The notes under the pieces are model-generated. The model made no database searches. It worked only from the letters and a program-made list of their open reading frames with translations, and had not been told where the DNA came from. From positions 1 through 56,702 of the forward strand of contig NZ_JACMNS010000088.1 of assembly GCF_014378415.1 (NCBI RefSeq): a stretch of 56,702 bases of DNA. Reading direction: 5' to 3'. Positions within the stretch are counted from its first letter, which is position 1, and each line of letters starts with the position of its first letter. The DNA is from Aquabacterium sp. (GTDB lineage Bacteria > Pseudomonadota > Gammaproteobacteria > Burkholderiales > Burkholderiaceae_C). A program made the translations under genes and the position numbers. Of the stretch, positions 1,837 through 15,032 are shown one piece after another.

Positions 1837-3438
1837 TCAACCATCCACCACCAAGGCTTCTCCATCCGGCGTCGTGAACAGGACCAAGTCCTTGTCGATG
1901 GAGAAGTACCCGATGTCATAAGTGCGTCGCAAACGGCGCTGCGTCTTGCCAAAGGCCAGGTCCACCGGGCCCGATACTCCCGCGCCGATCTCGACACGCG
2001 CGTTGCCAAACAAGGCCATCTGCTTGTCCAGCTCATCCTTGCGCACCAGTAACAAGCCCAGGGCCTGCAGCGCCTGCGCCCAGTTGGACCGCAGCCGGTC
2101 CAGCACACCCGTTTTGTCGCCCTGCCGGGTCAGGTGCTGGACAAGCCTGCCGAGGTTTTCTTCTTCCTGGTTCTGCTTGGCAATCAGGCCCAGCACATCC
2201 TGGTATTCGGCCTCCAGCACAGGGTTGACGCCCACCAGCACCTGGGTGACCACGCTGGCCGAATCGCCCAGCAGGGGCACACGGATCAGCATCATGGCGC
2301 GGGCAGAACCGCCCACCAGGCGCCCACGCTGCGGTGACTGCGTGCCAACGATGATCTGGTTACCAGCCTGCAATTGGCTTTGCAAGACCATGCTGTCGAT
2401 GGTGATGCCAACACCGGCATCAACGCTGGAGTTTTCGACAAATCGGGCCGACACCGAATCGCCCGCGCGCGCACTGGCACGGGCGATGATGCCGCCGCCC
2501 ACCCTGATGCTGCCGCCGGCCTCCAGGTGCCCGCCATCCACGGTCCCTGTCACGATGATGTCGCCGCTGGCCTGCACTTTCATGCCGGTGAGGACGTCAC
2601 CTTCAATTTGCGCGGTGCCATCAAACGCGATGTTGCCCGTGGCCATGCTCGCGCCATTGAAATAAACCACCTGCTCGACCATGACGCCGTCGCCCATGCG
2701 CACCGGCTGCCCCTTGAAAAGGGCGCGCAAGAGCTTAGGGTCTTGGCCATCCACCTTGGCACCGGGCAGGTCTGCCGCGAAAGCCACGGGTTGGCCGCGC
2801 ACCGGCTCCAGCACCTCGGCGCGGACGTTGCGGCCCAGGAATCCCACGGTTTCGGGGATGATTTTCATCAAGGCCTGATCAGCCTCGACCACGGGGATGT
2901 CACCCAGCTCACGGAAATCGATCAAGCCGTTCTGGCCCACTTTGGGTCGGCGATCGCGCGTGACGTCGACCAGCATCTCGAAACGTGCGTCTTCGCCATT
3001 GCGGGCCGGTTTGCCCTTGGCGGCCACCACCCGGCCACCTTCGGGCGAGGCGCACACTTGCTGCAAGGCGGCTTCGTCAACGCCAAACAGCACACCGGCC
3101 TGGGCCAATGCAGGCACCAGGACACTCACATCCAGCAAGCTGCCGCCCCGCGCTGGGCTTACCGTCACCCAGGCGCACATGGCATCGGGCGCGATTTCAA
3201 GTTCGAAGCTGGCGTCTCGCCGCTCGGCGATGACCACCTTGAAGGACTCTTCACTGGCACACCGGCTCACTGCCTGGTGCAGTTCGTCACCCAGCAAAAA
3301 CCAATGGGCATGCCCGGATTGGGCAATCAAATCCTTCGCCGCCTCGACACTCAAGGCGGGGCGGTTGGGCATGGGCCGGTGGTGCAACCAGAGTTGCCCT
3401 TCGGCCTCGATCAGATCAACACCAGAAGAACCCGACAT
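1837..3438 (-). CDS. FapA/DUF342 family protein
   Basis: A 533-residue protein of the FapA (DUF342) family. The N-terminal 170 residues are a variable domain. The middle (about 180-390) is rich in regularly spaced glycines and valines (TGNIAFDGTAQIEGDV, GDIIVTGTVDGG, GGSIRVGGGI), typical of the family's right-handed beta-helix. A predicted coiled coil follows (about 410-480). Some family members influence polar flagellar or c-di-GMP-linked processes in Vibrio and Pseudomonas, but the biochemical role is not settled. The start is preceded by GGAAAGGG about six bases upstream. It is transcribed alone; the next minus-strand gene upstream ends 136 bases away. Start and family are firm, function is not. 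Confidence 0.85.
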   Translation of the reverse strand: MSGSSGVDLIEAEGQLWLHHRPMPNRPALSVEAAKDLIAQSGHAHWFLLGDELHQAVSRCASEESFKVVIAERRDASFELEIAPDAMCAWVTVSPARGGSLLDVSVLVPALAQAGVLFGVDEAALQQVCASPEGGRVVAAKGKPARNGEDARFEMLVDVTRDRRPKVGQNGLIDFRELGDIPVVEADQALMKIIPETVGFLGRNVRAEVLEPVRGQPVAFAADLPGAKVDGQDPKLLRALFKGQPVRMGDGVMVEQVVYFNGASMATGNIAFDGTAQIEGDVLTGMKVQASGDIIVTGTVDGGHLEAGGSIRVGGGIIARASARAGDSVSARFVENSSVDAGVGITIDSMVLQSQLQAGNQIIVGTQSPQRGRLVGGSARAMMLIRVPLLGDSASVVTQVLVGVNPVLEAEYQDVLGLIAKQNQEEENLGRLVQHLTRQGDKTGVLDRLRSNWAQALQALGLLLVRKDELDKQMALFGNARVEIGAGVSGPVDLAFGKTQRRLRRTYDIGYFSIDKDLVLFTTPDGEALVVDG

Positions 3439-3574: not shown

Positions 3575-4534
3575 TCAGCGCATTTTCAACTGCCCCACCC
3601 GGCTCATCGCCAGTCCGGCGGCCGCCGTGCGGGTCTCGACGCCCAGCTTGGCAAAGACATGTTCCAGCTGTTTTTTGACGGTGGCCGGACTGGTGCCCAG
3701 GATGTCGCCAATGTCGCGGTTGGTCTTGCCCTTGACCACCCAGTAGAGCACTTCGCCCTCGCGGGCCGTGAGCTTGAGCTCCTGGGTCAGGGCTTGGATG
3801 GCCGCCTCGTCCGAGGTCTCGCGCATGACCAGCAGCCAGTTGTCATCGCCCGTGGGTTCGTGCAGGGCAAAGCTCAGGCGCCGACCGGCTTGCTGCACCA
3901 GCCAGGGCGTTGGCGGCTTGCCGGTGGCCATGTCGGCCAGGGCGCTGGGCGTGACCTGGCGCAGCCAGACGACCAACTCGTCGGGCGCCACGCTCTCGGG
4001 CGTCTCGAAATACTGCTGCAAGAGTTTGCGCGCCAAGGGCGTCTGCCACATGACCCGGCCGTCCGACAAGCGCACCGTCATCGACGCATGGCCAAAGGCA
4101 TCCAACGCACTGCGAGCTTGCCTGGCCTGGCGCGCGCTGGCCATGTGCGAGACGATGCGGGCCAGCACTTCGCGGGGTCTGATCGGTTTGGTAACGTAGT
4201 CCACGCCACCGGCTTCAAAGGCGGCCACCACGTGCTCGGTCTCGGTCAGGCCGGTCATGAAGACGATCGGGATGTGGCTGGTCTCGGGCAGTGCTTTCAG
4301 GCGGCGGGCCACCTCAAAGCCGTCCATGCCGGGCATCAAGGCGTCGAGCAAGATGATGTCGGGCACCGATTGGCTGGCGCGCTGCAAGGCGGCTTCACCA
4401 TGCGTGGCCACCAGCACGGTGTAGCCGGCTTCGTCCAGCGCATCGTGCAGCAGGGAGAGGTTGTCGGGCACATCGTCCACGATGAGCACGACATCGGTAC
4501 GGCTGCGGTCGAGTCGGTCAAGCATGGGGATCAT
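3575..4534 (-). CDS. Response regulator, REC plus LuxR-type helix-turn-helix
   Basis: A 319-residue response regulator. Residues 14-130 form a receiver domain (acidic pair in IVDDVP, phospho-acceptor Asp64 in ILLDALMPGMDG, the Thr/Ser in VFMTG, and Lys in YVTKPI). A middle segment of about 120 residues follows that I cannot place. The C-terminal 60 residues are a LuxR/GerE helix-turn-helix (LTAREGEVLYWVVKGKTNRDIG, then ATVKKQLEHVFAKL). The ATG at 4534 overlaps the TGA of the upstream kinase gene (ATGA), so the two are translationally coupled and almost surely cognate partners. The longer open frame upstream is overlap with the kinase gene and is rejected. Likely output is transcriptional control of neighbouring nitrogen genes such as urease, an inference from position. 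Confidence 0.93.
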   Translation of the reverse strand: MIPMLDRLDRSRTDVVLIVDDVPDNLSLLHDALDEAGYTVLVATHGEAALQRASQSVPDIILLDALMPGMDGFEVARRLKALPETSHIPIVFMTGLTETEHVVAAFEAGGVDYVTKPIRPREVLARIVSHMASARQARQARSALDAFGHASMTVRLSDGRVMWQTPLARKLLQQYFETPESVAPDELVVWLRQVTPSALADMATGKPPTPWLVQQAGRRLSFALHEPTGDDNWLLVMRETSDEAAIQALTQELKLTAREGEVLYWVVKGKTNRDIGDILGTSPATVKKQLEHVFAKLGVETRTAAAGLAMSRVGQLKMR

Positions 4535-7500
4535 GGCCGCGATTGTGCATGGAACTGCACCAGCGCCCGCTTGACGGCATCGGCCAAGGCATCGAGCTGG
4601 AACTGCTTGGCCAGGTGGCGCATGTGCTGCACAAACACCTCGCATTGGGGCTCGGCCGCCGCGATCTGGTCCAGCGTTTTGTGCACACCGCGCACATAGC
4701 CTGCATCGATCAGCTCTTCCAGGCTTTGCAAGGCTTTGAGCGATGGCAGCACCTGCATGCCGTCGCCCGCGCTTTGCGCGCCCATGGGTTGGCTGACGGC
4801 GGGGCGTTGCGCCTCGATCCATTGCAAGGTCAGGCGCCGCCCCAGCCAATCCAGCAGCTCGGCCATGCGCACGGGCTTGACGATGAAATCGTCAAACGTC
4901 ACGCCCACGTCGTTGTCCATGCCCTTGTCAAAGGCGTTGGCCGACACGATGGCAATCGGCGCGCGGCTCAAGCCTTCTTGCTTGATGGTACGGATGGTGG
5001 TCCAACCGTCGATGCCGGGCATCGCCAGGTCCATCAACACGGCATGGGGTTCTTGCGCCTGCGGGCAACTGCGCAAAAGGGACAGGCACTCCACGCCCGA
5101 TGCCAACGGGGTCACATCAAAGCCCAGGGGTTCGAGGATGCGCACCAGCAGGCCACGGTCGGCCTCTTCGTTGTCCACCACCCAGACCCGGAGGCGATCA
5201 CCCACATAGCCGGTGCGCAGGCCCAAGGGCACCGAGCGGTCAGCGTGGGTCAGGCGCACCTGCGGCAGGAACAGGCGGATGCGGAAAACCGTGCCCTGCC
5301 CTTCCACACTGCTGACCTTCATCTCGCCGCCCATCAGGTCGGTCAGCATCTTGCTGATGGTCAAGCCCAGGCCGGTGCCTGCCACCGACGAGCCCGCCAC
5401 CGATGAACCACGCGCAAAGGGCTCGAAGACGCGCTCCAGCTCGTCGATCGGGATGCCGGGCCCAGTGTCGATCACCTCGACCAAAGCGATTTCACGGGCG
5501 TAGCTGACCCGGAATTTCACGCTGCCTTGTGAGGTGAACTTCACCGCGTTGCCCAGCACGTTGAACAGGATCTGGCGCACCCGGCGTTCGTCGGCACGCA
5601 CCACTTCAGGCAGGGCCGCGTCCAACTCCACCTCAAAGCTCAAGCCCTTGCTCAAGGCTTGCGGCTGCAGCATGTTGATGATCTGCTGCAGGGACTCGAA
5701 CAAGCGCATGGGCTTGACGTCCAGCGTCAGCTTGCCGCTTTCGATGCGGGCGATGTCCAGGGTGCCTTCGATCAGCGACAGCAAATGGTCGCCACCGCGC
5801 TTGATCACCTCGATGCCGTGCCTGGCGTGCTCGGGCAGGCGCTGGTCTTCGTCCAGCAATTGCGCATAGCCCAGGATGCTGTTGAGCGGCGTGCGCAGCT
5901 CGTGGCTGATGGTCGAGATGTAGCGGCTTTTGGCCTGGTTGGCCTGCTCGGCGGTGCGTTTGGCCTGCTGCAGTTTGTCATCGGTGCGGCGGTGCAACTC
6001 TACTTCGCGCACCAGCAAGTGGGTCTGCCGGTTGGATTCTTCTTGCGCCACCTTGCGGCTTTTGTGCGCCAGTACCAGCCACCAGCCCACCACGCCCGAG
6101 ATCACCAGCAGCACGGCAAAGACCTTGAGGAAGCCGCTTTGCAGCGCGTCGATCAGGCCCAAGGTGGCCGGCTGATCCAAGGCGCGCAACTCGTGGTTGA
6201 AGATCAGGGCGAACAGCAGCGCCAAGGCCGGTACCAGCCCGCCCATCAACAGCATGAAGTGGCCCAACTCGGTGTCCAGGTGGCGCCAGACGAAAGGTGG
6301 CAGCAGCTTTTGCCCCACCGCCCGCCACTGCGCCGACCAGCGCGCATCGGGCTTGCACAGGTCGTGGCAGCGGGCATCCAGCGAGCAGCACAGCGAGCAG
6401 ATGAAGCCCTGGTAAGCCGGGCAATGGGCCATGTCCTCGCCTTCGTACTCGCGCTCGCACACGGTGCAGCGGTAGACGCCTTTCATGCCTTGCTTTGATG
6501 GACAGGTGTCGCAGCTGGGCGCCTTGGGCTCGGGCTGACGCGCGATGTAATAGCGCCCCTGGGTGAACCAGGCGATCAGCGGTGAGGTGACCAGGGCCGT
6601 GACCAACGCGATCAAGGCCGAGAAGGCCTGCGCCATCGGCCCCAGCCAGCCCAAGTAGGCCGTCACCGACAGGATCGACGCCGCGCTCATCGCGCCCACA
6701 CCCACCGGGTTCACGTCGTACAAATAAGCGCGCTTGAACTCGATGCCCTTGGGCGACCAACCCATGGGTTTGTTGATGACCAGGTCGGCCACCACGGCCA
6801 TCATCCAGGCGATGGCGATGTTGGAGTAAAGCCCCAGCACGCGCCCCAAGGCCTGGAACACGTTCAACTCCATCAGCATCAAGGCGATCATGGTGTTGAA
6901 CACCACCCAGACCACGCGCCCGGGGTGGCTGTGCGTGATGCGCGCAAAGAAGTTGGACCAGGCCAGCGAACCCGCGTAGGCGTTGGTGACGTTGATCTTG
7001 AGCTGAGAAATCACCACGAACAGGCAGGTGGCCGCCACCGCCCAGCTCAGGTTCGAGAACATGGTCTCGTAGGCCAGCAGGTACATTTGATTGGGGTCAA
7101 CCGCGCGGTCCGCCGGCACCGACAGGCTCAAGGCCAGGTAGGCCAGCACCGTGCCGCCCAACATCTTCAGCACGCCCAGGATCACCCAGCCCGGCCCGCC
7201 CATGAACACGCTGAACCACCAGCGCGCCTTGTGTTTGGGCTGCTGCTCGGGCATGAAGCGCAGGTAGTCGGCCTGCTCGCCCATCTGTGTGATCAAGGCC
7301 ACGCCCACCGTCATGGCCGCGCCAAAGGACATCAGGTTGAAGCCCGGCGCCTGCCCCTGTGCGCCGCCATACCCCACCAGGTCGCTCAGCACATGCGGAT
7401 TGGCCTTGAACACGTAGATGTAAGGCAGCACCAGCATCACCAGCCAAATCGGCTGCGTCCACACCTGCAATCGGCTGATGACCGTGACCCCGTGCGTGAC

Positions 7501-8082
7501 CAGCGGCACGACCACCACCGCGCAGATCAGGTAGCCCCAGGCGGGCGGGATGTCGAAGGCCAGCTCCAGCGCATAGGCCATGATCGCGGCCACCAGCGCG
7601 AAGAAGATGAAGGTGAAGGTGGCGTAGATCAGCGAGGTGATGGTGGAGCCGATGTAGCCAAAGCCGGCGCCCCGCGTCAGCAGGTCCATGTCCACGCCAT
7701 GGCGGGCCGCGTACACGCTGATCGGCCAACCGGCCAGCAAGATGATCAAGCCGGTGGCCAGGATGGCCCATAAGGCGTTGATGAAGCCATGCTCCACCAT
7801 CAAGGTGGCGCCGACCGCTTCCAGCACCAGGAAAGACGCCGCGCCGAAGGCCGTGTTGGCCACCCGCCATTCGCTCCACTTGCGGAAAGACCGGGGCGTG
7901 AAGCGCAGGGCGTAGTCCTCCAGCGTCTCGCTGCCCACCCAAGTGTTGTAGTCACGCCGCACCTTGACCACGCGCTGCAGGGCCTGGTCTCCCAGCAAAT
8001 CGGCCGAAGACTCGTCCTCGGCGGCGGGCGGGCCATCAATGCGCCGTTCGGCGGCTGGACTCATTTGGCGTGTGTCTTGCAT
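4531..8082 (-). CDS. NCS1-type permease fused to hybrid histidine kinase
   Basis: A 1183-residue membrane sensor. Residues about 45-515 are a complete NCS1 (purine/cytosine/allantoin type) permease of roughly twelve membrane segments, starting with the typical [17 protein letters not shown]. Next comes a segment with ten cysteines (524, 527, 539, 542, 554, 562, 565, 566, 572, 576) that looks metal-binding, two more membrane helices (about 606-628 and 651-672), a short coiled coil, a HisKA domain with His727 in [10 protein letters not shown], an ATPase domain (N box near 845, DTGPGIP at 872-878, GTGLGL) and a receiver domain with Asp1018 in [10 protein letters not shown] receptor role with the permease as input is inferred; the ligand is unknown. 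ATG at 8082 is chosen because the longer frame (8220) would run into divergent ureA at 8135. Confidence 0.92.
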
Positions 8083-8134
8083 AGTGGGTACTTCATCAAC
8101 GGCCAGTGCCGCAATTTCGGTGCCGAGAACAACA

Positions 8135-8437
8135 ATGGAACTGACCCCACGAGAGAAAGACAAGCTGCTGATCTTCACGGCCGCCCTGCTGGCCGAGCGC
8201 CGCAAGGCCCGGGGACTCAAGCTGAATTACCCGGAAGCCGTGGCCCTGATCACGGCCGCCATCATGGAAGGCGCCCGCGACGGCAAAACCGTGGCCACTT
8301 TGATGAGCGAAGGCAAAACCGTGTTGAGCCGCCACGACGTCATGGACGGCGTGGCCGACATGGTGCCTGAAATCCAGGTGGAAGCGACCTTCCCGGACGG
8401 CACCAAATTGGTGACCGTGCACCAACCTATTGCTTGA
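8135..8437 (+). CDS. ureA: Urease subunit gamma UreA
   Basis: Exactly 100 residues, the usual length of bacterial UreA, beginning [20 protein letters not shown] and containing [21 protein letters not shown] and the C-terminal [14 protein letters not shown]. It is the small gamma subunit of the (UreABC)3 urease that hydrolyses urea to ammonia and carbamate in the cytoplasm. It heads the cluster on this strand and diverges from the permease-kinase gene with only 52 bases between the start codons, so both promoters or a shared control region must lie in or beside that gap. No strong ribosome binding site is visible before the ATG. Confidence 0.97.
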
Positions 8438-8513: not shown

Positions 8514-9179
8514 ATGCCGACAACCTCATTCCGCCGCACCATGGTGGCTTGCACTCCCTGGGCTGCCGGCCTGGCTGCGGCCACCTTGGCGTCCGTGGCG
8601 CAAGCCCACGTGGGCGCCGATGGCCTGGCCCACCACCGCGGCGCCTTTGACGGCTTCACCGCAGGCGGGGCCCACCCGTTGACGGGATTGGACCACTTGG
8701 CCGCCATGATCAGCGTCGGCTTGTGGAACGCCTTGAGCCTGGGGGCCAAATCGACCCCATCCGCCAGCGCCAGGCACCTTCTGTCTGCACCGCTGGCGTT
8801 TGCGGCCACCTTGCTGATCGGCGCCTTGATGGCCCTCAATGGCGTCACCCTACCGGGCGTTGAACCCATGATCGCCGCCTCGCTGTTGGCCCTGGGGCTG
8901 CTGGTGGCCACGCGCATCGAATTGCCGACCGGCGTGGGCGCCGCCCTGGTGGCGGGTTTCGCCCTCTTCCACGGGTTGGCCCATGGCCAGGAACTGGGCG
9001 GCCACGCGGCCGCAGCGCTCACCGGCATGGTCCTGAGCACCCTGGCCCTGCACATGGCTGGCATCGGCGTCGGCCTGGCTTTGCGCCAACGCAGCCGCTG
9101 GCTGCCTCGCATCGCTGGCCTCGGTGTCACCACCTTGGGCCTTAGCCTCTTGAGCCCCGCCATCGCTGGCTTGTTCTGA
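8514..9179 (+). CDS. ureJ: HupE/UreJ family protein (probable nickel permease)
   Basis: A 221-residue inner-membrane protein of the HupE/UreJ family. After a cleavable-looking signal (hydrophobic segment ending AQAH about residue 33) comes the family's His-rich motif [12 protein letters not shown] (residues about 54-65) and six hydrophobic segments, including [17 protein letters not shown]. HupE proteins mediate nickel uptake, and UreJ relatives are found in urease clusters, so supply of Ni2+ for the urease active site is the likely role. It lies between ureA and ureB, with 76 bases after ureA and 10 before ureB. The ATG at 8514 is preferred to the upstream one at 8430 because the latter overlaps ureA and adds a polar stretch before the signal. 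ureJ versus hupE naming cannot be settled from sequence. Confidence 0.87.
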
Positions 9180-9517: not shown

Positions 9518-11245
9518 ATGGCAACCATCCAACGGCGTGCCTACGCTGAAATGTTCGGCCCCACCGTGGGCGACCGACTGCGCCTGGCCGACACCGACCT
9601 GGTCATCGAAGTCGAGCAAGACCTGACATTGCGGGCCGGTGGCTACGGCGAGGAAGTCAAGTTCGGCGGCGGCAAAACCATCCGTGACGGCATGGGCCAA
9701 AGCCAGCGCGTCAACGGCCCCGGCCCCATGGACGCGGTCGATTGCGTGCTGACCAATGCCCTGATCCTGGACCACTGGGGCATCGTCAAAGCCGACATTG
9801 GCCTGCGCGGCGGCCGCATCTTCAAGATCGGCAAGGCGGGCAACCCCGACGTGCAACCCGGCGTGGACATCGTCATCGGCCCTGGCACCGAAATCATCGC
9901 GGCCGAAGGCATGATCGTGACTGCTGGTGGCATCGACACGCACATCCACTTCATCTGCCCGCAGCAGATCGAAGAAGCACTGATGAGTGGCGTGACCACC
10001 ATGATCGGCGGCGGCACCGGCCCGGCCACCGGCACCTTCGCCACCACCTGCACGCCCGGCCCCGAAAACATCAAGCTGATGATGCAGGCCGGCGATGCCT
10101 TCCCCATGAACCTGGGCTTTTTGGGCAAGGGCAACGCCAGCCGCCCCGAAGCCTTGCGCCAGCAGGTCGAGGCCGGCGTGATCGGCCTGAAGCTGCACGA
10201 AGACTGGGGCACCACGCCCGCCGCCATCGACACCTGCCTGAGCGTGGCCGAAGAGACCGATATCCAGGTGGCGATCCACTCCGACACCCTGAACGAGTCG
10301 GGCTTTGTGGAAGACACGGTGGCCGCCTTCAAGGGGCGCACCATCCACAGTTTCCACACCGAGGGCGCTGGCGGCGGCCACGCCCCGGACATCATGAAGG
10401 TGGTGGGCGAGCCCAATGTGCTGCCTTCATCGACCAACCCGACGCGGCCCTTCACCATCAACACCATTGACGAGCACCTCGACATGCTCATGGTGTGCCA
10501 CCACTTGGATGCCTCCATCGCCGAAGACTTGGCCTTCGCCGAAAGCCGCATCCGGCGCGAAACCATCGCCGCCGAAGACATCCTGCACGACCTGGGCGCC
10601 ATCAGCATGTTCAGCTCCGACTCGCAGGCCATGGGCCGCGTCGGCGAGGTCATCATGCGCACCTGGCAGACCGCCCACAAGATGAAGTCACAGCGGGGCA
10701 AGCTGCCCGGCGACACCGACCGCCACGACAACGCGCGCATCAAGCGCTACGTGGCCAAGTACACCATCAACCCGGCGCTGGCCCACGGCATTTCGCACGA
10801 GGTGGGCAGCATCGAAGAAGGCAAATGGGCCGACCTGGTGGTCTGGCGCCCGGCGTTTTTTGGCGTCAAGCCTTCGCTCATCTTGAAGGGCGGCTTCATC
10901 GCGGCGGCGGCCATGGGTGATCCGAACGCGTCCATCCCCACGCCGCAGCCAGTGCACTACCGCGCCATGTTCGGCTCATATGGCGGCGCCCTGCCGCGCA
11001 CCTCGCTGACCTTCATGAGCCAGGCGGGCGTGGCTGCAGGCTTGCCCGAGCAATATGGTTTGAAGAAAACCGTGTCGGCCGTGAAGGGCTGCCGCAGCGT
11101 CAAGAAGATGGACATGGTGCACAACCACTACCTGCCGGTGATGGAGATCGACGCGCAAACCTACCAAGTGCGCGCCGATGGCCAGTTGCTGACCTGCGAG
11201 CCCGCCACGGTCTTGCCAATGGCGCAGCGCTACTTCTTGTTTTAA
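9518..11245 (+). CDS. ureC: Urease subunit alpha UreC (catalytic)
   Basis: The 575-residue catalytic subunit. All expected active-site residues are visible: nickel ligands His142 and His144 (GGIDTHIHF), the carbamylated Lys225 ([10 protein letters not shown]), His254 (AIHSDT), His280 (SFHTEG), the flap Cys327 and the catalytic His328 (MVCHHLD), and Asp368 (FSSDSQ). Assembly of the two nickel ions needs UreE, UreF, UreG and usually UreD; the first three are encoded further right, UreD is not in the window. The gene ends in a convergent overlap with the iron-transporter ATPase gene, the two stop codons sharing bases at 11242-11245, so the operon stops here rather than reading into ureE. Confidence 0.98.
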
Positions 11246-12324
11246 GCCTCGCCCGGCGGAAACACGATGAGGTGATCCATCTCCAGGCGCACGCCGATGG
11301 ATTCGTTGAGCGCATGGTCGTGGTGCGAAGGCACCATCGACAGCACCCTGGCGCCACTGGGCAGCTCCAGGGTGTAGAGGATCTCGGCACCCCGGAAAGC
11401 CTTGTGTTTCACCAAAGCCCGCACCGCGCTGGCATCGTCGTGGACCACGTCATCGGGCCGCAACAACACTTCCACCGGACTGCCAGGGGCGCAGGGCGCC
11501 AGGTCATTCGCGTAGCAGATGGGCCCGGGTGAGATCACATCACCCAGCTCAATGCTCAAGCATTGCGCCTCGCGCACACGGCCTGGCACGAACACGCCCT
11601 GCCCGATGAAGTCGGCCACGAAACGACTGCGGGGCCGGTGGTACAGGTTGTAGGCCGTGTCGATTTGCTGAATGCGCCCGTGATCCATCACCACGATCTG
11701 ATCGGCCATGGCAAACGCCTCGTTCTGATCATGCGTGACAAAAACCGCCGTGGTGCCCGTGGCCTTCAGCACACCACGCACCTCGGTGGCGAGTTGCTCA
11801 CGCAAGGCCACGTCCAGGTTGGAAAAGGGCTCGTCCAGCAACAGCAAGCGCGGCTGGGGCGCCAAGGCCCGCGCCAAAGCCACCCGCTGCTGTTGCCCCC
11901 CGGACAGCTCATGCGGATAGCGCTTGGCGGCGGCGGCCAAGCCCACCGTGTCCAGCCATTGCCGCGCCGTTTGAAGTGCCCCCTCTCCGCCCTTCAAACC
12001 AAACGCCACATTGCGCTCGACAGTCAGGTGGGGAAACAAGGCGTAGTCCTGGAACACCATGCCAATGCGCCTGCGCTCAGGGGGCACATGCCGCCCCTGC
12101 CCGCTGACCACGTCGCCCCCCATGCTGATCGATCCCGCGGTCAGGCGCTCAAAGCCGCCCACACACCGCAAAACTGTGGTCTTGCCGCAGCCTGAGGGGC
12201 CCAACAAACAGCAGATGTCACCAGCCTCGACCGACAGGCTCAACTGCGCCACAGTGGTTCGGCCCCCATAAGCGTGGTGAATGCCGTGCAGCGCCAGCGA
12301 GGGATGGGGTGGTAAATGAGTCAT
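11242..12324 (-). CDS. fbpC: Ferric iron ABC transporter ATP-binding protein
   Basis: A 360-residue ABC ATPase of the FbpC/PotA-like subfamily: Walker [11 protein letters not shown] loop [11 protein letters not shown], signature [15 protein letters not shown], Walker [13 protein letters not shown] and switch histidine in VFVTHDQ. A C-terminal TOBE-type domain of about 120 residues follows. Iron as substrate is inferred from the neighbouring binding protein and permease. The ATG at 12324 has AAGG upstream; a GTG at 12336 would add four residues. It is transcribed away from the permease gene, which starts 31 bases beyond, so the ATPase and permease are divergent rather than in one operon, unusual for this type of transporter. 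Confidence 0.9.
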
Positions 12325-12355
12325 ACAGGGGGGCACCTTACACTAGACCGCATCC

Positions 12356-14005
12356 ATGATGTCCCCCTACTCCCACCGTATTCGACCCAGTGGGCTGACC
12401 CTGCTCGCACTGCTCATCGCCGTGGTCATGGTCATCCCGCTGTTGTCCGTTGCCACCAATGTGTTCAACACAGGCACCACTGGCACCTGGACCCACCTGA
12501 TGGACACGGTGATGCCAGACTACATCACCACCACCGTGGTGTTGTGCCTGGGCGTGGGCATCGGCACGACGTTGGTCGGCGTGGGCGCGGCCTGGCTAGT
12601 CACCCATTGCGAGTTTCCGGGGCGCCGTGTTTTTGAATGGGCGCTGGTGTTGCCACTGGCCATGCCTGCTTATGTGATGGCCTATGCCTACACGGATTTC
12701 CTCCAATTCTCAGGCCCCATCCAAACCTGGCTTCGGGCCAGCTTGAACTGGACCCGTGCCGACTACTGGTTCCCGGACGTTCGCACTTTGGCCGGGGCCA
12801 TCTTCATGTTCATTGGGGTGATGTACCCCTATGTGTACATGCTGACCCGCACCGCCTTTCTGGAAAGAGGCGGCGCAGTGACCGAAGCCGCCCGTTCTCT
12901 GGGCTTGAGCCCGTGGCAAAGCTTTGCCCGCGTCTCGCTGCCCATCGCCCGCCCCGCCATTGCCGCGGGCGTGACACTGGCTTTGATGGAAACACTGGCC
13001 GACTACGGGACCGTCTCTTACTTTGCCGTTCAAACCTTCACCACCGGCATCTACCGGGCCTGGTTCTCATTGGGCGACCGTGTGGCCGCAGCTCAGTTGG
13101 CCATGTGCCTGCTGGGCTTTGTGCTGGTGGTGCTGAGCATTGAGCAAAGCTCGCGCGGAAGAGCCCGCTACCACGGCACTGGTTTGCGCAAACCATCGCG
13201 AGGTCACCGCCTTGGGGGCTGGCCAGCAGGACTGGCCGTGGTGGCTTGCCTGATCCCCCTGATGATCGGCTTCGTGTTGCCAGGCGGCGTGATGTTGCAC
13301 ATGGCACTGACCGACGGCGATGCCCAATTCGGCTCGCGCTTCCTGACCTTGGCGCGCAACAGCTTCCTGGTGTCAACCATGACTGCCGTGCTGGCCGTGA
13401 CACTGGCCCTCATCGTGGCTTATGCCCATCGCCTGCACCCCACTCTTTGGACCAGAGCCGCCCATGGCGCCGTGGGCATGGGTTATGCCTTGCCGGGATC
13501 CGTCATCGCCGTCGGCGTTCTGATCCCGGTCACCCAACTGGACAATGCCTTGGTGTCGGCTTTGAAAGCGCACCTGGGTTGGCAAGGCGGCTTGATCCTC
13601 ACAGGCGGCATTGCTGCGCTGGTGTACGCCTGCCTGGTCCGTTTTTTAACCGCCGCCTTGCAAAACGTGGATGCCGCCTTGCACCGGGTCACACCCCACA
13701 TGGACGACGCGGCGCGCAGCCTGGGCCTGTCATCAGGCAAAACCTTGCTCAGGGTTCACCTGCCGCTGCTGAGGCGAGGCCTGCTGACCGCGGGCCTGCT
13801 CGTGTTCATCGACGTGATGAAAGAGCTGCCTGCCACGCTGGTCATGCGGCCTTTTAATTTCGACACCCTGGCCACGCAGGTCTACACCCTGGCCTCGGAC
13901 GAGCGTTTGAGCGAAGCCTCCACCGCCGCCCTGGCCATTGTGGCCGTGGGCTTGGTGCCACTCATCATTTTGTGCCGCCAGATTGCCGCCGATCGGCAAT
14001 CTTGA
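12356..14005 (+). CDS. fbpB: Ferric iron ABC transporter permease
   Basis: A 549-residue integral membrane protein made of two fused permease halves, as usual for FbpB-type iron transporters. Each half has about six hydrophobic segments and an EAA-loop that contacts the ATPase: EAARSLGLSPWQSFARVSLP in the first and DAARSLGLSSGKTLLRVHLP in the second. Two in-frame ATGs begin the frame (12356 and 12359) and the ribosome binding site is weak. The gene stops at 14005, one base before the convergent end of the binding-protein gene (14007), leaving no room for a classical bidirectional terminator outside the coding sequences. Confidence 0.92.
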   Translation: MMSPYSHRIRPSGLTLLALLIAVVMVIPLLSVATNVFNTGTTGTWTHLMDTVMPDYITTTVVLCLGVGIGTTLVGVGAAWLVTHCEFPGRRVFEWALVLPLAMPAYVMAYAYTDFLQFSGPIQTWLRASLNWTRADYWFPDVRTLAGAIFMFIGVMYPYVYMLTRTAFLERGGAVTEAARSLGLSPWQSFARVSLPIARPAIAAGVTLALMETLADYGTVSYFAVQTFTTGIYRAWFSLGDRVAAAQLAMCLLGFVLVVLSIEQSSRGRARYHGTGLRKPSRGHRLGGWPAGLAVVACLIPLMIGFVLPGGVMLHMALTDGDAQFGSRFLTLARNSFLVSTMTAVLAVTLALIVAYAHRLHPTLWTRAAHGAVGMGYALPGSVIAVGVLIPVTQLDNALVSALKAHLGWQGGLILTGGIAALVYACLVRFLTAALQNVDAALHRVTPHMDDAARSLGLSSGKTLLRVHLPLLRRGLLTAGLLVFIDVMKELPATLVMRPFNFDTLATQVYTLASDERLSEASTAALAIVAVGLVPLIILCRQIAADRQS

Positions 14006-14006
14006 T

Positions 14007-15032
14007 TCAACGCCAGCCAGCGCGGTCAAACACCTTCTGGGCCAGCACCGCGTTGGCGGCCAGTTGGCCCACGGGCAGTGCATCTGACTTGAACGAACCC
14101 AAGGAATCCAACGCCGGGTTCTTGACCTTGGCCGAACTGACCACTGGCCACTCGTTGTTGCCATCGGCAAAGTAAGCCTGGGCCTCGTCGCTGCTCAAGT
14201 ACTCCAGAAAACGAATGGCCGCGTCACGGTTCGGTGCCGTCTTGATCACGCCTGCGCCCGATACATTGATGTGGGTGCCCCAAGACTTCTGGTTGGGCCA
14301 GGCCACACCCAGGTCCTTGACCACCAGAAGGTCTTCCGGCTTGCTGGAGCGCATGAGGCGCGCCAGGTAATAGCTGTTTGAAATGGCCACGCCGCATTCG
14401 CCAGACGCCACCGCCTTGATCTGGTCGGTGTCACCGCCCTTGGGCGAACGGGCAAAATTGGCCACCAGGCCCTTGGCCCACTCTTCAGTCCTGGCCTCGC
14501 CCAGGTGAGCGATCATGGCGCCGCCGAGCGACAAGTTGTAAGGGTGCGAGCCCGAGCGAACGCAAACTTGCCCCTTCAAACGTGGCAAGGCCAAGTCTTC
14601 ATACGTTTGAACCATGTCGGCCTTGATGGCGGCCTTGTTGTACACGATCAGGCGAGCCCTGGTTGAAAACGCAACCCAGTTTGGCGTGCGCAAGGCCGCT
14701 GGAATGCGGGCTTCCAGCACTTTGGATTGCCAGGGTTGAAACAGCCCGGCCTTGTCCGCGACTTCAAGGCGCGAGGCATCCACGGTGATCAGCAGGTCAG
14801 CCGGGCCGTTGGCCCCTTCGTTTTTGATCCGCTCCAGCAGTTCGTCTTCCTTGCCATCAAGGCGGTTGATCTTGATGCCAGTGTGCTTGGTGAAGTTGGC
14901 GTACATCGCCTCATCGGTTTGATAATGACGCGCTGAGTAAATGTTAAGCACTCCGCCAGATTGAGCATGAGCACTGAGTGCTGCAAGGCCAGCAAGCAGG
15001 CCGGTAAAAATGGATTTGACGATGAGGTTCAT
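14007..15032 (-). CDS. fbpA: Ferric iron ABC transporter substrate-binding protein
   Basis: A 341-residue periplasmic binding protein of the FbpA/FutA family. The signal peptide spans about residues 1-23 (hydrophobic core, AHA before QSG). The mature start GGVLNIYSARHYQTDEAMY is typical, and the iron-binding tyrosine pair is seen in ISNSYYLARL. It would deliver Fe3+ to the FbpB/FbpC complex. It starts next to a Fur-like sequence at 15082-15100, divergent from ureE. Expression is therefore probably iron-repressed. It ends one base from the convergent permease gene. Confidence 0.93.
   Translation of the reverse strand: MNLIVKSIFTGLLAGLAALSAHAQSGGVLNIYSARHYQTDEAMYANFTKHTGIKINRLDGKEDELLERIKNEGANGPADLLITVDASRLEVADKAGLFQPWQSKVLEARIPAALRTPNWVAFSTRARLIVYNKAAIKADMVQTYEDLALPRLKGQVCVRSGSHPYNLSLGGAMIAHLGEARTEEWAKGLVANFARSPKGGDTDQIKAVASGECGVAISNSYYLARLMRSSKPEDLLVVKDLGVAWPNQKSWGTHINVSGAGVIKTAPNRDAAIRFLEYLSSDEAQAYFADGNNEWPVVSSAKVKNPALDSLGSFKSDALPVGQLAANAVLAQKVFDRAGWR

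Follow-up and report, generated by a model that had tools for sequence, protein, structure and literature searches.

We analyzed a 56,702-nucleotide stretch of the Aquabacterium sp. contig NZ_JACMNS010000088.1 (hereafter, the window), in which the gene of a hybrid sensor histidine kinase lies divergent from the urease gene ureA and overlaps the gene of a LuxR-type response regulator (RR). The N-terminal part of the kinase is predicted to be a whole transporter domain with the NCS1 fold, and homologues of the kinase are typically encoded beside genes for the uptake and hydrolysis of urea and short-chain amides. We consider it likely that the protein is an NCS1 transceptor kinase that responds to urea and/or short-chain amides, with the RR acting via a palindromic operator on an uptake operon. 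In the mechanism that we propose, the NCS1-fold domain would bind, and perhaps also move, a small amide; the conformation of the permease would be relayed through a cysteine-rich tail and two extra transmembrane helices to the kinase; phosphate would pass to the RR; and the RR would bind the palindrome before the urea/amide uptake operon, presumably as an activator.

Domain architecture and the predicted NCS1 fold

The kinase, its domains and its two flanking genes are located in the window as follows.

4531..8082 (-): gene of the hybrid sensor kinase (1183 aa), from the ATG at 8082 to the stop at 4531-4533; architecture common to relatives
6538..7977 (-): NCS1-fold permease domain, residues 36-515; AlphaFold2 model with Mhp1 and CodB as top Foldseek matches, no Pfam match
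6355..6468 (-): conserved eight-cysteine tail, residues 539-576, C-x2-C-x11-C-x7-C-x2-CC-x5-C-x3-C; from alignments, with short strands in the AlphaFold2 model
6058..6273 (-): a further pair of transmembrane helices, at about residues 604-675; from hydropathy and helices in the AlphaFold2 model
5734..5934 (-): HisKA, residues 717-783, phospho-acceptor H727 in SHELRTP; Pfam
5266..5592 (-): HATPase_c, residues 831-939; Pfam
4849..5187 (-): receiver domain (Response_reg/REC), residues 966-1078, D1018; Pfam
3575..4534 (-): LuxR-type RR, 319 aa, REC plus GerE helix-turn-helix; Pfam
8135..8437 (+): ureA (urease gamma), divergent from the kinase; Urease_gamma, 3.4e-48

An initial annotation of this DNA had described an NCS1 permease fused whole to a hybrid histidine kinase, coupled to a LuxR-type regulator and starting 52 bases from ureA, and our analysis bears out each of these statements. 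Pfam and a check of individual residues place HisKA with its histidine, HATPase_c and a receiver with its aspartate in the kinase, as in hybrid histidine kinases; the RR combines REC with the GerE domain of the LuxR/NarL type; the kinase stop and the RR start share an ATGA overlap; and 52 bp separate the kinase ATG from the ureA ATG at 8135 (an in-frame ATG at codon 7 of the kinase is also a possible start). The span 4531-8437 given for the fusion reaches too far, as 8437 is the end of ureA and the kinase gene extends only to its ATG at 8082. Because the same domain order recurs in dozens of genomes, the architecture is more than a chance fusion. The same sensor also occurs with other outputs, in which PAS, Hpt or a second REC is added (L089, L090), and without REC (L129, L135).

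The transporter domain is NCS1 by fold and hardly by sequence. For an AlphaFold2 model of residues 33-715, built on 69 sequences (mean predicted local distance difference test score 80.7, predicted template modelling (TM) score 0.81), Foldseek ranks 1-5 in the PDB are all Mhp1 and CodB structures, with an E of 2.9e-9 for Mhp1 (2jln) and a TM-score on target of 0.73-0.77 for CodB (7qoa). We keep the NCS1 assignment because these are the best matches of the predicted fold; as identity is 16-17% and the root-mean-square deviation 5-7 Å, the details of the binding site lie beyond the model's resolution. At the sequence level, Pfam finds nothing in kinase residues 1-700 and no transporter family in any of 20 relatives, PF02133 has no match in the Aquabacterium genome at E<=0.001, and NCBIfam recognizes the cytosine permease family in 4 of the 20 relatives (best 7.3e-7) and TIGR00800 (ncs1) in one. 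A search of PDB sequences with the family profile returned no match at E<=1, so residues could not be mapped onto Mhp1 by sequence. Several residues (e.g., Q266, G268, E269, Q270, D272, K362, N364, N367 and Y369) are invariant across 17 fused and 3 standalone proteins, which suggests a shared binding site.

Between the permease and the kinase, the initial annotation had pointed to a segment with ten cysteines. There are indeed ten within residues 524-576; two of these ten, C524 and C527, lack conservation. The remaining eight are kept in 105-108 of 109 aligned homologues (one of which, L138, is a long-branch non-member retained both here and among the 97 loci below) and in all 76 sequences of a second alignment, for which 76 of 80 loci were used (L180 and L195 have a 9-15 aa open reading frame at the match, probably from broken frames, and L191 and L212 are cut). 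The conservation on which that annotation had made its reading depend is thus present. Standalone permeases, the unfused relatives, also carry the tail, with all eight cysteines in L219 and L229, four in Acinetobacter, Klebsiella, Streptomyces and others, and nearly none in Arthrobacter and Tsukamurella; the tail is therefore characteristic of the transporter family as such, and the kinases have kept it whole. Three standalone proteins with the reduced set had suggested that the extra four cysteines are kinase-specific, an idea that we dropped in view of L219 and L229. The tail is probably metal-binding and may form a two-site zinc-ribbon-like module; Pfam matches of the zinc-finger type are weak and scattered among single family members.

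The near invariance of the eight cysteines in the kinases also fits another reading, akin to the metal or redox input that the initial annotation had considered, in which the NCS1 domain and the tail sense redox, metal (e.g., nickel or zinc) or general nitrogen status and are linked to amides by their neighbouring genes only. Urease requires nickel, and nifH-like genes adjoin the kinase in L047. We regard this as quite improbable, given that the tail is found on standalone permeases too and is mostly lost in Arthrobacter and Tsukamurella, as would be expected of a structural transporter element, and that the residues shared by fused and standalone proteins point to a common binding site.

Gene context in Pseudomonadota and the likely ligand

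We surveyed 300 genomes of the window's own order and 398 genomes of the phylum (match threshold E<=0.001), and added 80 loci chosen as closest relatives. Loci were viewed over about 20 kb, on some contigs less, and L013-L042 were excluded as short duplicates of loci taken again at greater length. The kinase family is widespread in Pseudomonadota: 53 of the 300 order genomes match, 49 of them by a match of at least 42% identity over most of the query (rows judged by eye), as do 61 of the 398 phylum genomes.

The 97 loci from the order and phylum samples contain urtABC in 71 cases, fmdA in 55 and ureABC in 25, and 85 have ureABC, urtABC, fmdA or an amidase/nitrilase gene nearby; the nitrogen context that the initial annotation had expected of homologues is thus the rule. 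Most often, the kinase is divergent from urtABCDE-fmdAB(-amiE), a cluster for the uptake and hydrolysis of urea and short-chain amides; urtA is immediately divergent in 50 of the 97 loci and the RR adjoins the kinase in 83. Among the 80 closest relatives, the divergent gene is ureA in 51, and the RR is present in 73. On a tree of 79 rows made by a quick method, divergence from ureA requires 2 changes (9.5 in shuffles) and is confined to a single Burkholderiales clade, whereas divergence from urtA requires 9 (25.6 in shuffles) and is scattered across the tree. The ureA-divergent layout of the window is therefore a derived Burkholderiales state. The Aquabacterium genome itself holds two copies of the kinase: the window copy facing ureA, and a second (C9, L043) that faces a urtA of the short-chain-amide type and falls apart from the ureA-divergent clade.

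The ligand is suggested mainly by the standalone relatives, since 8 of their 11 loci adjoin urease, formamidase or amidase genes: urease in L008, L220 and L226, and formamidase or amidase in L219, L227, L228, L229 and L230. In L219, the standalone permease heads fmdA-fmdB-amiE in the place where urtABCDE usually sits, divergent from the kinase and with an operator between them. In L012, the standalone gene adjoins just a kinase, and L007 and L092 have no urease, formamidase or amidase gene in view. On this basis, we favour urea or short-chain amides.

The initial annotation had instead proposed a purine- or ureide-like ligand such as allantoin, which fits a reading in which the kinase senses purines, hydantoins or allantoin and exerts direct control of urease at the ureA promoter. 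The best fold matches are indeed a hydantoin transporter (Mhp1) and a cytosine transporter (CodB), public annotation labels the standalone relatives "allantoin permease", and xanthine dehydrogenase genes lie near L003 and L095. However, the recurring neighbours are urt, fmdA and amidase genes, not purine or allantoin genes, and because urtABCDE, formamidase and amidase are the commonest partners, we rank such ligands below urea or short-chain amides in likelihood.

A wider generalization, to which we give roughly even chances, is that NCS1 transceptor kinases serve across Pseudomonadota as the substrate sensors for the use of urea and short-chain amides. Their standalone sisters, which in Klebsiella, Acinetobacter, Moraxella and Actinomycetota are encoded in clusters for urease, formamidase and amidase, would then form a class of urea/amide transporters, as yet without a name, with a Cys-rich regulatory tail.

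The NCS1-Cys domain also occurs in plasmid records, 342 of 533 of which are from Klebsiella. In one plasmid region (L009), the kinase diverges from urtABCDE-formamidase, and heat-shock and arsenic genes flank the whole; the plasmid regions were picked by hand from match lists, not at random.

The palindrome before urtA and the ureA-kinase gap

De novo motif discovery in 54 urtA-kinase intergenic regions returned the palindrome ATACGTCAnnTGACGTAT with a log-likelihood of 518, versus 32-36 in three shuffled sets. It scores at least 15 bits in 51 of the 54 regions and at least 17 bits in 50. With a matrix of this AT-rich type, a threshold of at least 17 bits yields 56 matches in the urtA-kinase intergenic regions, 10 elsewhere in those loci and one in 1.03 Mb of shuffled sequence. 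Outside the training loci there are 44 such matches, for which the nearest reference gene is urtA in 29 (28 within 100 bp), the kinase start in 10, and fmdA and amiE in one each, with no reference gene for 3. In the ureA-divergent loci, a GC-rich form, cnTACGCCAcCtGgCGTATt, precedes canonical urtA in all 24 loci with urtA in view (found de novo and in-sample; score 259 versus 26 shuffled), and an independent matrix reaches at least 17 bits in 10 of these 24, each time at urtA. The putative target sequences of the RR take the palindromic forms TACGTCAnnTGACGTA and TACGCCAnnTGGCGTA. The recognition helix of the window RR is SPATVKKQLEHVF, the usual form among relatives being SPRTVNKHLEHVF, and this change may go with the changed operator.

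The palindrome tracks the presence of the kinase. At a threshold of 15 bits with the best of three matrices, it precedes urtA in none of the 43 genomes of the order that lack the kinase (G131, with 3 bp upstream, was dropped from this control). Among genomes with the kinase, it does so in 11 of 13 (G111 being one of the 11) in which the kinase is not placed opposite an amide-type urt cluster, and in none of 12 in which the kinase faces or adjoins such a cluster; G204 and G264, which hold both kinds of kinase, are counted among the 13. We infer from this pattern that the RR binds the palindrome. The pairing is one of co-occurrence, so that the palindrome might belong to another regulator that accompanies the kinase; we consider this very unlikely, as the inverted-repeat form and its position fit LuxR-type regulators (cf. 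the motif of CrbR, as given in the accessible part of PMC5715377), all 43 kinase-free genomes lack it, and in G111 the urtA that it marks and the kinase are on separate contigs. The best-supported RR target in the window's lineage, as judged from sequence, is canonical urtABCDE.

Several observations weigh against the urea/amide reading or its operator. No urea or amide gene is in view in 15 of the 80 closest-relative loci and in 11 of the 97 order and phylum loci, and the kinase of L047 (G111) adjoins genes resembling nifH and its partners (first residues read). The kinase-bearing genomes G047 and G091 lack the operator, 3 of the 54 intergenic regions fall under 15 bits, and 6 of the 11 positive genomes had been used to train one of the three matrices, although the same six reach at least 17 bits with the independent one. 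The Aquabacterium assembly (92.5% complete) contains no canonical urtA, its best match (43%) being the amide-type copy, and the window holds no good operator (best 8.8 bits). The RR target was therefore taken from L141, a 95%-identical relative whose locus continues to urtA; synteny with it stops at window position 1831. With up to 2 mismatches, the GC-rich pattern has 10 sites in the Aquabacterium genome (C17:8830, C19:20311, C34:18331 and seven more) versus none for a reversed-pattern control, and none of them is on the window's contig; we rejected these sites as target markers, as the three inspected match no reference gene and two are inside long open reading frames. The AT-rich pattern has a single site, at the C9 copy of the kinase, and since reversed controls gave 4 and 3 matches, its position and not its number is informative.

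The gap between ureA and the kinase has a different appearance, with three candidate sites in or near it.

8110..8125 (-): sigma54-like site CGGCACCGAAATTGCG, with its end 27 bp ahead of the kinase ATG; consensus score
8066..8081 (+): sigma54-like site TGGCGTGTGTCTTGCA, facing ureA and overlapping the kinase start codon; consensus score
8038..8057 (no strand): inverted repeat AATGCGCCGTTCGGCGGCTG with weak resemblance to the operator, within the first part of the kinase gene, which may be chance; 4.7 bits with the urtA-derived matrix

Scored with weights for the sigma54 -24/-12 consensus (GG-N10-GC; maximum 12.4), the two sigma54-like sites reach 10.6 and 10.7. Across 56 ureA-kinase gaps, sites of at least 10.5 face the kinase in 42 and ureA in 37 (0.6 and 1.1 in shuffles), while in the 54 urtA gaps they face the kinase in 19 (shuffles 1.35) and urtA in 2 (1.2). 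These sites suggest that NtrC-sigma54 probably puts both ureA and the kinase gene under nitrogen control in the clade of the window, with the RR palindrome belonging to urtA.

The initial annotation had made urease the main output, and direct control of ureA is also part of the purine/allantoin reading. The divergence of ureA in the closest relatives speaks for it, as does a degenerate palindrome of at least 10 bits in 13 of the 56 ureA-kinase gaps (0.05 expected). The promoters of ureA and the kinase, by comparison, look sigma54-dependent, and Pfam finds no AAA+ domain in the window RR. An RR operator in the window's own gap was rejected: AATGCGCCGTTCGGCGGCTG attains 16.1 bits only when its own sequence is part of the set used to train the matrix (a set from which L141 was omitted as near-identical), the independent matrix giving just 4.7. 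With degenerate palindromes in 13 of 56 gaps and a weak site in the window, RR control of ureA is possible but weakly supported, and a purine, hydantoin or allantoin sensor acting directly on the ureA promoter seems unlikely to us overall.

Among the other genes of the window, a FapA-like gene follows the RR (1837-3438), and the synteny with L141 ends there. A HupE/UreJ gene (8514-9179) separates ureA from ureB, an order that recurs in many relatives. Between ureC and ureE is an ATP-binding cassette (ABC) importer (11242-15032), composed of an ATPase (11242-12336, -), a permease (12356-14005, +) and a binding protein (14007-15032, -).

Comparison with known transporter-kinases and amide regulation

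The initial annotation knew of no described case of this layout, and we likewise found no description of the family in the open-licence literature on NCS1-kinases, urea sensing and amide transporters; in three of the papers on SLC5 and Amt transporter-kinases, the accessible portions do not mention NCS1. What results is a testable candidate sensor together with the RR and a putative operator, and the comparison of urtA genes that have the operator with those that lack it offers a ready control. If our reading is correct, likely substrates can also be assigned to these transporters, a family missing from the Pfam copy with which we worked.

Amide-responsive regulation takes other forms elsewhere. 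AmiC/AmiR likewise provides amide-responsive control of amidase together with ABC-type uptake, as far as the accessible text of PMC13209695 describes it, but its sensor is of the periplasmic-binding type and works with an antiterminator. The same text reports an amiE-fmdAB-urtABCDE cluster without amiC and amiR in P. veronii. In Methylophilus, urea and formamide induce uptake and amidase genes, and no sensor is named in the available part of the source (PMC10781810); for fmdCABDEF of Methylophilus methylotrophus, the portions at hand name only a putative positive regulator and describe no kinase.

Mhp1 and CodB, the closest solved folds to the permease domain, differ in being standalone proteins without a kinase, at 16-17% identity, that handle hydantoins and cytosine. 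Ks-Amt5, which joins an Amt ammonium transporter to a histidine kinase, likewise reuses a transporter of a nitrogen compound as a kinase sensor; it has the Amt fold and 679 aa, and the accessible part of its description includes no REC and leaves its RR unidentified (PMC5764959).

The closest parallels are the SLC5 transporter-histidine kinases of CrbS/CrbR, CbrA/CbrB and RpuS/RpuR, in which, according to the parts of the papers available, a whole transporter domain is likewise fused to a (hybrid) kinase; CrbS/R and RpuS/R further share a LuxR-type RR, and an inverted-repeat motif before the target uptake and utilization genes is another common feature (PMC9100948, PMC5715377, PMC13022988). 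The window kinase differs in its transporter, which is NCS1-like: Pfam finds no SLC5 (SSF) domain, and SLC5-type structures rank under Mhp1 and CodB. Nor does Pfam match a STAC domain in residues 1-700, where the Cys tail and two transmembrane helices replace STAC and PAS. The proposed regulon also differs, being urea/amide uptake here and, in the accessible accounts, acetate, pyruvate or histidine there. By its domains, the window kinase thus stands outside the SLC5-STAC kinases, yet by analogy it would work like them, in which case NCS1, like SLC5 and Amt, would be a transporter fold that serves as the sensor of a kinase.

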